Of a stretch of DNA of 64,000 nucleotides, positions 18,574 through 24,273 are shown one piece after another. Source of the stretch: Arenicella xantha (lineage in GTDB: Bacteria; Pseudomonadota; Gammaproteobacteria; Arenicellales; Arenicellaceae); contig NZ_QNRT01000005.1 in the NCBI RefSeq assembly GCF_003315245.1, positions 124,001 to 188,000 on the forward strand, given 5' to 3'. Each line of letters begins with the position of its first letter. Position 1 is the first letter of the stretch. Below the pieces are notes generated by a model. The model had not been told where the DNA came from. It searched no databases and saw nothing but the letters and a program-made list of their open reading frames with translations. Both the position numbers and the translations under genes were made by a program.

Positions 18574-19014
18574 AGATGGTTCTCCGTATATCTACGGCTC
18601 TTTAGGGTTGGTCATAGCAGACCGTAAGGGAGCATATAAACCCGAGAACTGTAGCAGCCTTTGTTGGCTTTTCCCAGCAGCATGAGAATTGTGATATTTA
18701 ATTTACCACTAGCAATATCACTAAAAATCTGTAAAGATGTTGCTTATACGGGACACTTTTTCGGGTTTCGTATGATTTTTGTGACCACAAGTAGTCGGGC
18801 GAGGACCCTACAATATACTTTGCACGCCAATTTGAGAAACTGCCCCTACCCCTGCCCAAGGTTTCTCAAGCTGATATTTCAGATAAGTGCGCATTGCCAA
18901 GCTCGACTACTTTTTTTATCCAGCTCTCTGTAACTTAGCTCCCCGTATTGCCTCGTTTGTCGCTCTGTCGACGCTCAATCTGCGGTTGCTGAGGAAAAGT
19001 ACAAGGAGCTTGAG
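18574..19014. other. 441-bp intergenic region between divergent genes
   Basis: It separates the unknown membrane protein gene (minus) from the second membrane AraC gene (plus). The open frames crossing it lack start signals. It contains a 9-bp perfect inverted repeat at 18832-18869 (listed separately) and, at 19003-19008, the AAGGAG that serves the TTG start at 19015. No promoter with good spacing was identified with confidence. Confidence 0.5.
18832..18869. promoter_or_regulatory. 9-bp perfect inverted repeat with pyrimidine-rich loop
   Basis: TTGAGAAAC (18832-18840) and GTTTCTCAA (18861-18869) pair perfectly around a C-rich 20-base loop. It lies about 145 bp before the TTG start of the AraC-type gene. 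It may be an operator of that regulator or an RNA hairpin in its leader. It is not followed by a T-run, so it is unlikely to be a terminator. Confidence 0.4.
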
Positions 19015-20181
19015 TTGAGTCGGTGGGTATACTACCTTTGTCATGAATTTCTTCTGGGTGGTGAATTTTGCAAACACACGCTGTTTTGGTTAATGCTTGG
19101 GCATTCTCAGCCTACTTACGATGCTGCACAAAGCATGGATAATCTTCTCGTTGCTGCCTTAAGCTTGGCTATCTCACAAGTTGTATTAAGTGCAACCTTA
19201 TTGCTTCGCGAACATAAGCAATGGCGACTACCGCAGAGTGTTTTAGGCCTCTTTTTAGTGGCCACTTGCGCTTATTTATTACGACCCTTTTTCACACAGC
19301 ACTGGCTAGAGGATTGGCTGATTCCCATTGAGACGGCGGTTCCTGGGTTCTTTTGGTTGCTGTGTTACAGTTTATTTGATGACCGGTTCAAACTGCGATT
19401 TTGGAATCTTGGTTTAGTCGCCGTTACCGTGATGTTGCCCCAGCTTGGCATTCTGTCGGTATACCTCGGTGGGCCCTCTTGGCATTGGCTTTTTGATATC
19501 TTTCCACAGGCTATCGAATTTGTATTGCTAGCATGGGCGCTGTACGTGGTGGTGCGTTTTTGGCGCGACGACTTGATCGAAGCGCGGCGCGATTTACGGC
19601 TTATCTTTAGCGCAATCGCCGGACTGTATATTTTTATAATGGTAGTGTTGCGTGAGCTAGTGATCACCGATGAGCAGTGGTTGGAGCAATCGCAGTATTT
19701 CCCAGTCGGGATTATTTGCCTGATTATGAATTTGCTTTTTTTGCAGTACAAACCAACCATATTTGGCCGGGTCGATCCGGTAAATCCACCGACGCCGATT
19801 TCTTTGGATGACTGCGGGATTTCTTCTTTAGATATCCCTCCCGAAGTACTTTCCCAGCTTGAGCACATGATGCTTGAACAACGTGTATATCGTGAAATGG
19901 GTCTAACCATTGGGCAGCTTGCGAAGCGCTTGGAGCTGCCTGAGTACCGCCTCAGAAAAATCATTAACACCGGCTTGGGTTATCGCAATTTCAACGATTA
20001 TCTGAATGGATTCCGTATTAAAGAAGCCGGTGAGCGATTGGCTGATTCGAGAATGGCTGATCAAGCGGTATTGAATATTGCGCTAGACGTCGGGTTTCGA
20101 TCTTTGAGCTCATTCAATAAGGCATTTCGAGCCGTATATGGCGTTACGCCGACGGTTTTTCGTCAAACCCACCTGCCATAA
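19015..20181 (+). CDS. AraC-family regulator with N-terminal membrane domain (second copy of the type)
   Basis: The 388-residue protein has about seven hydrophobic helices in residues 40-260 and a C-terminal AraC domain (about 285-385) with LTIGQLAKRLELPEYRLRKI and LNIALDVGFRSLSSFNKAFR, ending GVTPTVFR. The DNA-binding part is close to that of the regulator at 6455, and both share an F-W-L-L/FDD-F pattern in the membrane half. I chose the TTG start because a perfect AAGGAG lies 6 bases upstream; later ATGs have no such site. It precedes the cytochrome/beta-helix operon by 87 bp on the same strand and is a candidate regulator of it. Confidence 0.85.
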   Translation: MSRWVYYLCHEFLLGGEFCKHTLFWLMLGHSQPTYDAAQSMDNLLVAALSLAISQVVLSATLLLREHKQWRLPQSVLGLFLVATCAYLLRPFFTQHWLEDWLIPIETAVPGFFWLLCYSLFDDRFKLRFWNLGLVAVTVMLPQLGILSVYLGGPSWHWLFDIFPQAIEFVLLAWALYVVVRFWRDDLIEARRDLRLIFSAIAGLYIFIMVVLRELVITDEQWLEQSQYFPVGIICLIMNLLFLQYKPTIFGRVDPVNPPTPISLDDCGISSLDIPPEVLSQLEHMMLEQRVYREMGLTIGQLAKRLELPEYRLRKIINTGLGYRNFNDYLNGFRIKEAGERLADSRMADQAVLNIALDVGFRSLSSFNKAFRAVYGVTPTVFRQTHLP

Positions 20182-20268
20182 CCAAGTAAATCGCTGACGT
20201 ATTTTAAAATCCATAGGCGGTGTTTGAACGTCTGGCTCATGATATGACTCGAATTTACTTTAATCTGG

Positions 20269-20946
20269 TTGGCCAGTCCTGTGAGACATCTATTTCTGTG
20301 CTACTGCAATTCAATAAGAACAGCACGCGTTGGCGGGCTGCTTGTTTTAGCTTTTTCCACGTTATTGCAAACGTCGCTGGCTGCTAGCAGCGAAACCGGT
20401 GCGACGCTGTATCAAACATCGTGTCAGTCCTGTCATGGGCCCGACGCGCGCGGCAAAGAAGTGCTCAACAGCCCAGCGTTGGCAGGACAGTCTGCGGCCT
20501 ATTTAGTTCGACAACTAGAGCATTTCTCAAAAGGTATTCGTGGCGGTGACGGTAGCGATGCGCTGGCGAAACAGATGCGCGCAATTAGTCTGTCGATGAC
20601 GCAAGACCAAGACCGGCAAGATCTGGCTGAGTATCTTGAGTCGCTACCGGCTGGCGCCGTTACACCGATCGCCGGTGATACTGATTTGGGTTACAAGCTG
20701 TATCAAGCTTCCTGTGGTGGATGCCACGGTGGCGATGCACAAGGAAATGAGCTGCTTAACTCGCCCCGGTTAGCGGGTTTGAGTGCGAGTTATCTAACGC
20801 GCCAGTATCAACATTTTTTAGATGGCACACGCGGTAGTGATCGATCTGATAAATTTGGTCGCCAAATGAAAATGATAGCCGCCACGTTAAAAGATAGAGC
20901 TCAAGTAGAGGCTGTGATCGCCTATATTTCATCTATTCAGCCATGA
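20269..20946 (+). CDS. Dihaem cytochrome c (c4-like)
   Basis: A 225-residue exported protein with two class I cytochrome c domains. The haem-binding motifs are CQSCH at 52-56 and CGGCH at 149-153, with likely axial methionines M103 (KQMRA) and M200 (RQMKM). Each half shows the c4-type pattern G-x-x-L-Y-Q-x-S-C-x-x-C-H-G. The signal peptide spans about 18-39. The start (TTG 20269) has no good ribosome binding site and may be another nearby codon. The stop overlaps the next start by 4 bp, so the three redox genes are translationally coupled. It is a periplasmic electron carrier, probably serving the peroxidase-like protein downstream. Confidence 0.88.
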   Translation: MASPVRHLFLCYCNSIRTARVGGLLVLAFSTLLQTSLAASSETGATLYQTSCQSCHGPDARGKEVLNSPALAGQSAAYLVRQLEHFSKGIRGGDGSDALAKQMRAISLSMTQDQDRQDLAEYLESLPAGAVTPIAGDTDLGYKLYQASCGGCHGGDAQGNELLNSPRLAGLSASYLTRQYQHFLDGTRGSDRSDKFGRQMKMIAATLKDRAQVEAVIAYISSIQP

Positions 20947-22163
20947 TTCGTCGTCTTCTTACGGCGGGCGTGGTGCTCGTTGCTCTGCTCGTTGATTTGA
21001 TTGGTATCAAACACCAGGCCGCAGCTGACTCTACAATTTTCGTGCTACAGCAGACCTGCCCTCGCGGTTTTGAGTTAACGTCAGATAATCGCTGCGAGCT
21101 GCGAACCTTGTACCAATTTTATGACTCGACCCAGAGTCGTGGGGTTGGCGGTACACACACTGGTTTGCCTGCGGTACGCGATGGCTTTAGTCCACAGCAG
21201 ATTGATTTAGGTCGCCTGTTGTTTTTTGACCCAGTTCTGTCGGTCGACGGTACGGTTTCTTGTGCCTCTTGTCACCGACCCGACAAAGGTTTTACCGATG
21301 GACAAGCGGTTTCGTTAGGTGTGGCGGGTAAGCAAGGCACACGTTCGGCACCATCGCTTTGGAATACCGCGTTTCTAACCAGCTACTTTTGGGATGCGCG
21401 TTCAAGCTCGCTCGAACAGCAAGCCGCTGAAGCGTTGTATTCACAAGCCGAAATGGCCAACACACCGACTAATCTGCTGCAGACTTTAAATGCTAATCCG
21501 ATCTATCAGGGCTTATTCCAACAAGCGTTCAACAGCGGCACATCGATAACGCTGGATAATTTGTACACCGCGTTAGCGGCGTTTCAAACGTCTTTAATCT
21601 CTCTCAATAGTCGCTACGATCGCTACGCACATGGTGACCACGCTGCGCTAAATAGTGATGAAGTAGCCGGCCTAAATGTGTTTCGCTCGTTTGTTGCGCG
21701 CTGCGCTGAATGTCATACGCCACCGTTATTTACCAATAATCAGATCGCGGTAATCGGAGTTCCTGACGATGACGAGACAATTCGAGACGTTGGTGCAGAA
21801 AAAACCTATGGTGAGTCGAAGCTGAAAGGTGGCTTCAAAGTGCCGACGTTAAGAAATATTGAACACACGGCACCGTACATGCACTCGGGAAATTTCACTG
21901 AGCTGCGTGATGCGATCGAATTCTATAATCTTGGGCGAGGTCATGCGGTGCCCAAAGATACTAAATTATTACTCCACTGGCATATCACAAGCCCAGACTT
22001 GAGCGATCATGAAATTGACTTATTAGTCGGGTTTATGGCGTGCCTGAGCGACCAGAAATTCATGCCGACCATACCTAACACGGTACCGTCTGGTTTAACT
22101 CCGATTAATCATCTACCCACCGCTGTGACCAGCGCGACCAACCCACGAGGATCCCTACAATGA
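20943..22163 (+). CDS. MauG/cytochrome c peroxidase-family dihaem protein
   Basis: The 406-residue protein has a signal peptide and two haem-binding motifs, CASCH at 107-111 and CAECH at 254-258. It has the family segments LGRLLFFDPVLSVDGTVSC, KGFTDGQAVSLGVAGKQG, RSAPSLWNTAF and FKVPTLRNIEHTAPYMHSG. Bacterial CCP enzymes reduce H2O2; MauG-like members oxidise protein residues of a partner. An extra cysteine pair (C39, C51) lies before the first domain. It overlaps the genes on both sides by 4 bp (ATGA), which implies a fixed stoichiometry with the cytochrome and the beta-helix protein. Confidence 0.9.
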   Translation: MIRRLLTAGVVLVALLVDLIGIKHQAAADSTIFVLQQTCPRGFELTSDNRCELRTLYQFYDSTQSRGVGGTHTGLPAVRDGFSPQQIDLGRLLFFDPVLSVDGTVSCASCHRPDKGFTDGQAVSLGVAGKQGTRSAPSLWNTAFLTSYFWDARSSSLEQQAAEALYSQAEMANTPTNLLQTLNANPIYQGLFQQAFNSGTSITLDNLYTALAAFQTSLISLNSRYDRYAHGDHAALNSDEVAGLNVFRSFVARCAECHTPPLFTNNQIAVIGVPDDDETIRDVGAEKTYGESKLKGGFKVPTLRNIEHTAPYMHSGNFTELRDAIEFYNLGRGHAVPKDTKLLLHWHITSPDLSDHEIDLLVGFMACLSDQKFMPTIPNTVPSGLTPINHLPTAVTSATNPRGSLQ

Positions 22164-23677
22164 AACGACTTCTAGTTTTGCTTATCGGTATGGGCGCTAT
22201 TGCCGCAGGCATAGGCTATTACTTAGGCGCTAAATCGACGCCTGCTTCGGTGTTAACCAACGTATCGCAAGGGGCAGCCTATCAAGGCGGTTATGATCAG
22301 GCTAAGGACGCCGGTGTCGAAGCCGGGCAACGTCAGGGGCCGGCGGGGCAGGCATCGCAAGCATTGATCGTGGTTAACGATGGAGAATCGATTCAAGCGG
22401 CGGTTAAACAAGCCTTGCCCGGCACCACCATTCAAATAATGCCCGGTGTTTATCATGAAACGGTGTATATCGATAAAGACAGCATCCAACTCATTGGTGT
22501 TATTGAAGCGGGTAAGCGCGCGGTGCTCGATGGTCAAGGTAAATTGAATGACGCGATTCTCTACTCTGGTAACAATGTGGTGGTCGAAAACCTAGAAATC
22601 ACCGGTTACAAGGGCAATGGAATTATGGGCCAAGCAGGTAATAATTTCGAGATTCGTAACAATCTCATTGTTGACACTGGCATTTATGGAATCTTCCCGC
22701 AATTGGGCAAAAACGGAGTGGTTGAATACAATGTTGTGTCGGGCATTGCTGACGCGGCAATCTATATTGGCATGAGCGATAATGTGCACGTAGCGCATAA
22801 CCAAGTGTTCGATAGTGTTGCCGGCATTGAGATCGAAAACAGTCGACACGCCATTGTTGAGAACAATCATGTTTACAATAACACTGGCGGTATTTTGGCA
22901 TTCATCACGCCGGGCTTACCAATTAAGACCACCTATGACGTGATCATTCGTAACAATTTCATACTCTCAAATAATCATGAAAATTTTGGAGCGCCGGGTT
23001 CTACCGTAGCTGGCATTCCGGCTGGCACGGGTATTCTGGTGATGGCCGCTGATGAAGTCGTTATCGAAAACAACTTAATCGTAGATCATAAGACCGTGGG
23101 CGTGTTAATTGTTGATCATGCCAATGCCTCAAATGTGACGGCCGACCCTGATGCTGATCCGAATCCGGATAAGGTGGCGATTCTGAACAACACCATGATG
23201 AACAACGGCTACGATACCATTCCCGAAATTAAAGCGTTTATGGCGCTGAGTCTCAAGCAAGTAGAGCCGGATATTGCGCATGTGAGCGCCGGTCAAGACA
23301 ATTGCATCATTAACCGTCACCGCTACAACACGGTTGGATTGTCTGATTTCACTGAATGTGAGTTTACTCACACCGATGCAATTAAAACCTATTTGCTTGA
23401 TACACCAGTTCCGCCGCGTGACATAGCGGCTTCTGAACGCGGAAAAATTGCGTATTTGGGCGTGTGTACTGGATGCCACTCTTATAATGGCCGTTTAATC
23501 GGTCCGTCTATTCAAACTATTCAAGCACTGTATTTTGAGGACCCCGAAGGCTTGGCGACGTACCTTGCGAATCCAATAAAAAAACGCCCTGACTACCCTG
23601 AAATGCCGTCGCAAGCGTACTTAGGTGAAGAAACATTGTTGGCGGTGGCGAAATACGTGTTGAGTCGCGAGAACTAG
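22160..23677 (+). CDS. Parallel beta-helix protein with C-terminal cytochrome c domain
   Basis: The 505-residue protein begins with a membrane segment or signal peptide (about 4-24). A right-handed parallel beta-helix follows from about 70 to 380, with the PbH1-like pattern VVVENLEITGYKGNGIMG, FEIRNNLIVDTGIYGI, VEYNVVSGIADAAIYIG, VAHNQVFDSVAGIEIENS and so on. A short monohaem cytochrome c domain closes it: VCTGCH (C436, C439, H440) with likely axial M482 (YPEMPS). Beta-helix proteins are often polysaccharide lyases or epimerases, but no catalytic set is recognised. Coupling to a peroxidase and a c4-type cytochrome suggests redox modification of, or electron exchange with, the helix protein. 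Confidence 0.85.
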   Translation: MKRLLVLLIGMGAIAAGIGYYLGAKSTPASVLTNVSQGAAYQGGYDQAKDAGVEAGQRQGPAGQASQALIVVNDGESIQAAVKQALPGTTIQIMPGVYHETVYIDKDSIQLIGVIEAGKRAVLDGQGKLNDAILYSGNNVVVENLEITGYKGNGIMGQAGNNFEIRNNLIVDTGIYGIFPQLGKNGVVEYNVVSGIADAAIYIGMSDNVHVAHNQVFDSVAGIEIENSRHAIVENNHVYNNTGGILAFITPGLPIKTTYDVIIRNNFILSNNHENFGAPGSTVAGIPAGTGILVMAADEVVIENNLIVDHKTVGVLIVDHANASNVTADPDADPNPDKVAILNNTMMNNGYDTIPEIKAFMALSLKQVEPDIAHVSAGQDNCIINRHRYNTVGLSDFTECEFTHTDAIKTYLLDTPVPPRDIAASERGKIAYLGVCTGCHSYNGRLIGPSIQTIQALYFEDPEGLATYLANPIKKRPDYPEMPSQAYLGEETLLAVAKYVLSREN

Positions 23678-23709
23678 TGTTCGCGAATTTGCGCTAAACT
23701 AGTAGGCCT

Positions 23710-24273
23710 ATGACAATCGATTTTCACAAATATGAGTCTCATCAAGCCGTATTAGATTTCTGGTTTGATGAGATTGAGCCGCAGCAGCGCTGGCGCAAAG
23801 ATGCTGGTTTTGACGAGTTGATTCGCACACGGTTTGCCGACGTTCATTTCGCAGCATCTCAAAGCGAGCTCTTTACTTGGCGCGAGACTGTTGAAGGGCG
23901 AGTGGCTGAAATTATTGTACTGGATCAGTTTTCACGTAATCTGTATCGAGATTCAGCGCGTGCGTTCGCCTGTGATGCTATGGCCTTAGTCTTAGCGCAG
24001 GAAGCTGTAGCAATGCGGCTCGACCAAGCTCTGTCGCGCGACTTCGCACAATTCCTATACATGCCATATATGCATTCCGAATCGATTTTAATTCACGATC
24101 AAGCACTGGGTTTGTTTGAACAGCTCAGTAATGCCGAGGTGATGGAATTCGAAATTCGGCATCGCGATATCATTCGCCGTTTTGGTCGTTACCCGCATCG
24201 TAATGCGATTTTAGGGCGGCCTTCGTCAGTGGCAGAATTGGCATTTCTGGAGCAGCCGGGTTCGTCTTTTTGA
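23710..24273 (+). CDS. DUF924 family protein
   Basis: The 187-residue protein shows the whole-length DUF924 pattern: VLDFWFDEIEPQQRWRKDA, FDELIRTRFADVH, IIVLDQFSRNLYRDSARAFACD and FLYMPYMHSES. Its structure is helical, of tetratricopeptide type, and its function is unknown. It lies 33 bp after the beta-helix gene and 14 bp before the acetyltransferase gene on the same strand. It could therefore be the distal part of the redox operon, though nothing links it functionally. Confidence 0.88.
   Translation: MTIDFHKYESHQAVLDFWFDEIEPQQRWRKDAGFDELIRTRFADVHFAASQSELFTWRETVEGRVAEIIVLDQFSRNLYRDSARAFACDAMALVLAQEAVAMRLDQALSRDFAQFLYMPYMHSESILIHDQALGLFEQLSNAEVMEFEIRHRDIIRRFGRYPHRNAILGRPSSVAELAFLEQPGSSF

Follow-up and report, generated by a model that had tools for sequence, protein, structure and literature searches.

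What does a MauG-like diheme enzyme act upon when the gene directly following its own encodes a beta-helix protein with a heme of its own? The question is raised by a locus in a stretch of 64,000 nucleotides from Arenicella xantha (contig NZ_QNRT01000005.1, positions 124,001 to 188,000; hereafter the window), in which three genes on the forward strand encode an exported c4-type diheme cytochrome of 225 amino acids (20269–20946), an exported MauG-like diheme enzyme of 406 (20943–22163) and a TIGR03805 right-handed beta-helix protein of 505 with a C-terminal monoheme cytochrome c domain (22160–23677). Both junctions are 4-base ATGA overlaps (CCATGATT between the c4 and enzyme genes, CAATGAAA between the enzyme and beta-helix genes); the start codon of the c4 gene is uncertain, being a TTG with an in-frame GTG further on at 20281. 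An initial annotation, made from the DNA letters alone, had proposed this arrangement of three exported heme proteins together with their identities, and the profile matches bear it out: the c4 protein matches PF00034 in two stretches (4.8e-25), the enzyme PF03150 (CCP_MauG; 8.9e-54, 182.6 bits against a gathering score of 25.6), and the third protein TIGR03805 (180.2 bits, over the curated cut-off of 141.5) and then PF00034 over residues 426–502.

The MauG-like enzyme and the heme-bearing beta-helix protein, a pair kept by many marine and soil bacteria, appear to form a genuine functional unit. A single scan of named genomes yielded 325 relatives of the window's beta-helix protein, and the best 80 of these 325, being 61–79% identical to it in the best segment and, because the best were kept, not a random sample, supplied the loci for comparison. 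As called by tblastn, the gene immediately upstream of the beta-helix gene, in the same orientation, is MauG-like in 80/80 of them, with a gap of between −30 and +110 bases separating the two open reading frames in 74/80 and with the exact 4-base overlap possible in only 14/80. A c4 homologue is present in 64/80, a count that a stricter rule lowers to 62 because the c4 match overlaps the enzyme match at two loci (L008 and L057). The initial annotation had let its reading stand or fall with these genes being neighbours elsewhere, which among the closest loci they are, in the proportions just given. Further away, the order on the Ruegeria pomeroyi DSS-3 megaplasmid (45% identity; SPO_RS20595–20610) is AraC, cytochrome, peroxidase, TPR, beta-helix, and in genome G179 (47% identity) the enzyme and beta-helix genes are again neighbours. 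A gene with a TPR match was also noted separating the MauG-like gene from the beta-helix gene, or immediately preceding them, at L120 (10850–11926) and, weakly, at L132 (1–879), the two most distant MauG-type loci.

How widely is the pair spread? Among 369 genomes drawn from the class, the beta-helix protein is found at E <= 1e-90 in three, the enzyme adjoining it in 3/3, and the enzyme at E <= 1e-80 in four. In the window genome (4.4 Mb, 99% complete), a single TIGR03805 protein exceeds the cut-off and a single enzyme relative reaches E <= 1e-80. The closest named matches include several Arenicella metagenome-assembled genomes; yet TIGR03805 exceeds its cut-off in just 4/9 genomes sampled from the genus, and the module is therefore patchy. 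Another genome of the genus (G025) carries a 63% identical enzyme at a contig end, with no beta-helix relative found in that genome.

To what kind of enzyme does the middle gene belong? Its hemes are placed at C107–H111 and C254–H258, and two CxxCH motifs occur in 84 of the 85 enzyme sequences from the relatives collected for motif counts (one of which, L134, repeats L010), the exception, L005, being a fragment. In the 82-row alignment used for conservation counts (L005, L120 and L132 left out, the one repeat kept inside), both heme motifs, W140, W150, Q160, Y328 and H345-W346-H347 are invariant, and E170 is found in 81 rows, the remaining row being unread there. An N-terminal C39/C51 extension, W140 and the HWH motif (85/85) mark the subfamily. 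By alignment, 82/82 rows have Tyr328 where the second heme would have its distal ligand; it is aligned with a Met of Nitrosomonas and Geobacter peroxidases, and with the Tyr of five MbnH-family sequences over cut-off as well as of five TIGR04039 and six TIGR03791 matches, all of these below cut-offs (0/200 genomes offered a MauG sequence over the TIGR03791 cut-off for this alignment). The position of the resting-state His of cytochrome c peroxidases (CCPs) is mostly I, V or A, and V127 in the window enzyme. In MauG, the ligand is Tyr294; the titles of Protein Data Bank entries among the fold matches include a Y294H MauG variant and Y463M BthA. The enzyme scores 181.7 bits with the MauG equivalog TIGR03791 (cut-off 443.85) and 209.6 bits with the MbnH family TIGR04039 (cut-off 362.85). 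Its predicted structure (a single-chain model, as are all models here; predicted local distance difference test score, pLDDT, 78.4) has the CCP/MauG fold, with Z-scores of 26.0 to the CCP 1iqc (the highest; 290 aligned, 3.0 Å), 25.6 to the MauG-like copper-homeostasis protein 6e1c, 23.3–23.7 to MauG and 22.2 to BthA. On sequence grounds, the enzyme is to be classed as MauG-type by its Tyr328 residue, as a member of neither the MauG nor the MbnH named family, and as not a classical peroxidase at the second heme. A bis-Fe(IV) state and the modification of a partner are the functional hallmarks of the MauG/MbnH type. An enzyme of this kind requires a partner that it can oxidise, and the beta-helix-cytochrome protein is the evident candidate.

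This candidate begins with a hydrophobic segment and is modelled (pLDDT 86.3) as a beta-helix spanning approximately residues 66–403, followed by a helical cytochrome domain (approximately 424–505) that carries C436-T-G-C439-H440 and M482. Every relative has one CxxCH (85/85), so that the cytochrome motif on whose conservation the initial annotation had also relied is kept, and M482 is conserved in 82/82 rows. Sequence-profile matches to solved structures at E <= 0.001 cover the cytochrome part only. What could the enzyme modify in such a protein? The suggestion, already made at the outset, that it modifies the helix protein gains from Tyr328 at an MbnH/MauG-like position and from the precedent of the enzyme/partner pairs described in PMC3621798. 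However, there is no Trp in the window protein and none in 25/85 relatives, and a Trp-based product (tryptophan tryptophylquinone, kynurenine) on the beta-helix protein is therefore unlikely. A Tyr is possible as the modified residue.

Which part of the module matters most is suggested by a second type of locus. The TIGR03805 cut-off is exceeded in 11/274 genomes of the class: four encode a stand-alone protein (divided over two frames in G225), another four a fusion of roughly 1000 amino acids, and three the window type. In all four of the first group (L123–L126) the stand-alone protein adjoins a member of the SO2930 family of diheme c-type cytochromes (TIGR03806) over its cut-off, as does the TIGR03805 protein on a Novosphingobium plasmid (L121), while the four fusions (L127–L130) score over the TIGR03805 and below the TIGR03806 cut-off and contain an SO2930-like two-heme region in the same protein. 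Additional TIGR03805 copies in G097 and G179 (L131 and L136) stand outside these eight SO2930-type loci. TIGR03806 has no match in the window genome, and none in any control genome either. The SO2931 protein is, we assume, the TIGR03805 partner. In the literature, SO2930 and SO2931 figure as outer-membrane or extracellular cytochromes in lists, tables and a mutant description. A cytochrome is fused to the beta-helix in both module designs, and 11/11 aligned proteins (six MauG-type, five SO2930-type) share Y176, P180, D198, Y202, G204, E224, E226 and N227 as well as P251, L253, N275 and F276, a patch defined by alignment. The swap of partners around a constant patch points to the beta-helix protein as the core of the module's function, and to a role for it in which electrons take part.

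A further link between the two designs is provided by TonB receptors. Beside the SO2930-type pair of G071 and G223 lies a receptor that is 50% and 48% identical, respectively, to that of a Steroidobacter MauG-type operon; both are the best matches of the Steroidobacter receptor in their genomes, the next best reaching 32% and 29%, and a related receptor adjoins the SO2930-type pair on the Novosphingobium plasmid. Among the 80 MauG-type loci, a receptor homologue (counted at over 150 bits within the fetched stretch) is found in 45, such receptors being numerous in these genomes. That one patch is served by two types of heme-protein partner, with a shared receptor class in some genomes, is a sign that the patch does the work of the module and handles electrons.

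Our preferred reading, which we advance tentatively and at somewhat less than an even chance, is that the locus encodes a periplasmic redox module, often TonB-linked, in which the beta-helix would be the working part and the enzyme would oxidise the beta-helix-cytochrome protein for maturation or turnover. The TonB receptor, where present, would bring in a ligand, which the groove of the beta-helix, as a catalytic or binding subunit, would bind; the heme fused to the beta-helix would serve as an electron port, and c4 would connect the protein to the respiratory chain. Peroxide would raise the MauG-type enzyme to a high-valent state, in which it would oxidise the beta-helix-cytochrome protein, be it a single time, so as to mature a residue other than Trp, or at every turnover. 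Together, c4 and the MauG-type enzyme may stand here where SO2930 does in the related module. A more specific version, in which the enzyme oxidises a residue other than Trp in the groove, such as an invariant Tyr, and so creates an oxidoreductase with a protein-derived cofactor, its own heme and a ligand supplied via a dedicated TonB receptor, is in our judgement improbable.

Several observations weigh against this preferred reading. No MauG-like match occurs in the eight SO2930-type loci (0/8, L125 ending approximately 0.6 kb upstream), so that the beta-helix core in itself can do without the enzyme. The c4 gene is absent from 16/80 loci; five of these (L005, L020, L063, L069 and L071) have less than 0.9 kb of upstream sequence, but the remaining 11 have more than 1 kb, and in them no same-strand CxxCH open reading frame is seen in up to 3.5 kb upstream. 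TonB receptors are abundant (G179 alone has 32 matches at E <= 1e-30), the window operon has no neighbour of the class in question, and the window genome offers no close member of it, the best match being 33% identical over a part. Adjacency beyond the closest 80 of the 325 relatives was sampled only twice. Finally, G179 has a second gene of the enzyme subfamily (L161, 8717–10027, minus strand), for which the 19 kb fetched contain no beta-helix gene; it may have another partner. A distant TonB receptor homologue was noted near that gene.

Could the locus instead be a three-component chain for peroxide reduction, in which the enzyme removes H2O2 with electrons from c4 and from the cytochrome bound to the beta-helix, the latter being a docking scaffold? 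The high conservation of Q160 (82/82) and E170 (81/82), which correspond in position to the catalytic residues of CCPs, would fit such a role, as would the highest-scoring fold match of the enzyme being a CCP and the presence of c4 at most loci. Yet the second heme has Tyr rather than Met throughout, the resting His is not kept, and a mere scaffold would need no strongly conserved polar patch, which together leave us regarding this chain as rather unlikely. We are a little more doubtful still about metal handling after the manner of MbnH/MbnP, SACCP/MopE and CorB/CorA, in which the enzyme would make or serve a copper site in a NosD-like partner. According to PMC3621798, MopE has a kynurenine in its copper site and corA/corB are copper-regulated, and M156, M205, H230 and H320 of the beta-helix protein are found in 82/82 rows; the conserved Trp that a kynurenine would call for is, however, absent, M205 is replaced by Gln in the five aligned SO2930-type proteins, and the same source had at its time no data tying close MbnP homologues to copper. 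As to the likeness to NosD, the TIGR04247 match reaches 55.8 bits, far under the cut-off of 300, and NosD structures (Z 27.5–27.8) are one of many beta-helix folds matched.

The same list of folds bears on the remaining alternative, that the beta-helix domain acts oxidatively on polysaccharides, which the initial annotation had entertained alongside modification of the helix protein. The closest solved structures are indeed alginate epimerases and lyases (best 5lw3, Z 31.7, 284 aligned, 2.4 Å); the list, however, does not separate NosD, epimerases and tailspikes, and therefore shows a beta-helix only. DPHD/DPHE is the catalytic motif of mannuronan C-5 epimerases, and DPH[DE] is present in 0/85 beta-helix relatives. 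Nor is a glycoside hydrolase or polysaccharide lyase found among the 30 nearest non-core neighbours scanned at 28 loci (out of 107 nearest, in 68 distinct clusters). On the other side, two loci of the Steroidobacter group have, some kb upstream and on the opposite strand, GH81 (L046) and GH39 (L047) genes, and on a Hymenobacter plasmid (L122, 7818–8816) GH43, GH30, GH127 and arabinofuranosidase genes surround that of a heme-less TIGR03805 protein (144.1 bits, just above the cut-off of 141.5). The latter context is evidence that at least some of the wider TIGR03805 family may serve glycan metabolism; for the window protein we consider such chemistry quite improbable. The initial reading is thus supported in part, its polysaccharide branch being the weak one, and it contained neither the SO2930-type module nor the link to TonB receptors nor the Tyr.

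The surroundings of the module add other features. Upstream, at 19015–20181 on the same strand, lies the membrane-bound AraC-type regulator that the initial annotation had recognised, a protein of 388 amino acids with five hydrophobic segments (Kyte-Doolittle) and a C-terminal HTH_18 domain (PF12833, 1.8e-14); an AraC homologue is found upstream in 40/80 loci. Downstream, a DUF924 gene (23710–24273) begins 33 bases past the beta-helix gene and could share its transcript, and in none of the 80 loci did similarity clustering of neighbours reveal a DUF924 gene next to the module. Promoter-like and terminator-like matches within 18900–23760 do not rise above the count in shuffled sequence. Elsewhere, some loci of Colwelliaceae and of the Steroidobacter group have an aldehyde dehydrogenase downstream of the module (L011, L046 and L058 among those scanned; L018, L035, L047 and L056 by similarity cluster); for those at L011 (9651–11087) and L046 (11961–13457) the best NCBIfam match, to the benzaldehyde dehydrogenase MdlD, falls below its cut-off. 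An aldehyde reductase Ahr (L005), a CoA-transferase (L070), a thioesterase (L075) and AceK (L054) each occur at a single locus, and old yellow enzyme genes lie near the module at L078 and L132. Neighbouring genes were considered as a clue to the substrate and set aside, the 30 scanned being a mixed and mostly unrelated set with no common theme, and no substrate is claimed.

How, then, does the module relate to what is known? MauG-like enzymes with an adjacent partner have been described in MbnH/MbnP, SACCP/MopE and CorB/CorA, and the MbnT TonB receptor often adjoins the MbnP/MbnH pair (PMC3621798). In the literature searched, from which subscription papers mostly fell outside, we recognised no paper describing the combination of a MauG-like enzyme with a beta-helix-cytochrome. 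TIGR03805 is a named family; to our knowledge, no function has been assigned to it, and the partner has been identified for only a few MauG-like enzymes. The TIGR03805 and SO2930 families and the MauG-like enzyme/partner pairs are the known elements, and their combination with a beta-helix-cytochrome partner may be the new one. The MauG-type version offers a testable handle, with a candidate partner that has its own heme and adjoins the enzyme in every one of the 80 loci examined. With the TIGR03805/TIGR03806 pair, the window module shares the beta-helix family, the patch, the presence of a heme protein next to the beta-helix or fused to it and, in some loci, a related TonB receptor, but here c4 and a MauG-like enzyme take the partner role and the beta-helix has a monoheme domain of its own. 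Classical bacterial CCPs resemble the enzyme in fold, in the catalytic Glu/Gln positions and in having a c-type donor nearby, and differ from it in the Met ligand position, which is Tyr in all window-type rows, and in the resting His. With MauG of methylamine dehydrogenase maturation the enzyme has in common the diheme fold and, presumably, the Tyr ligand, whereas it scores under the TIGR03791 cut-off and has its own N-terminal Cys extension and HWH motif. Like MbnH/MbnP, SACCP/MopE and CorB/CorA, the module sets a diheme enzyme, Tyr-type as compared for MbnH, beside an exported partner; unlike them, it falls under the TIGR04039 cut-off, usually includes a c4 gene and has as its partner a beta-helix-cytochrome without a conserved Trp.

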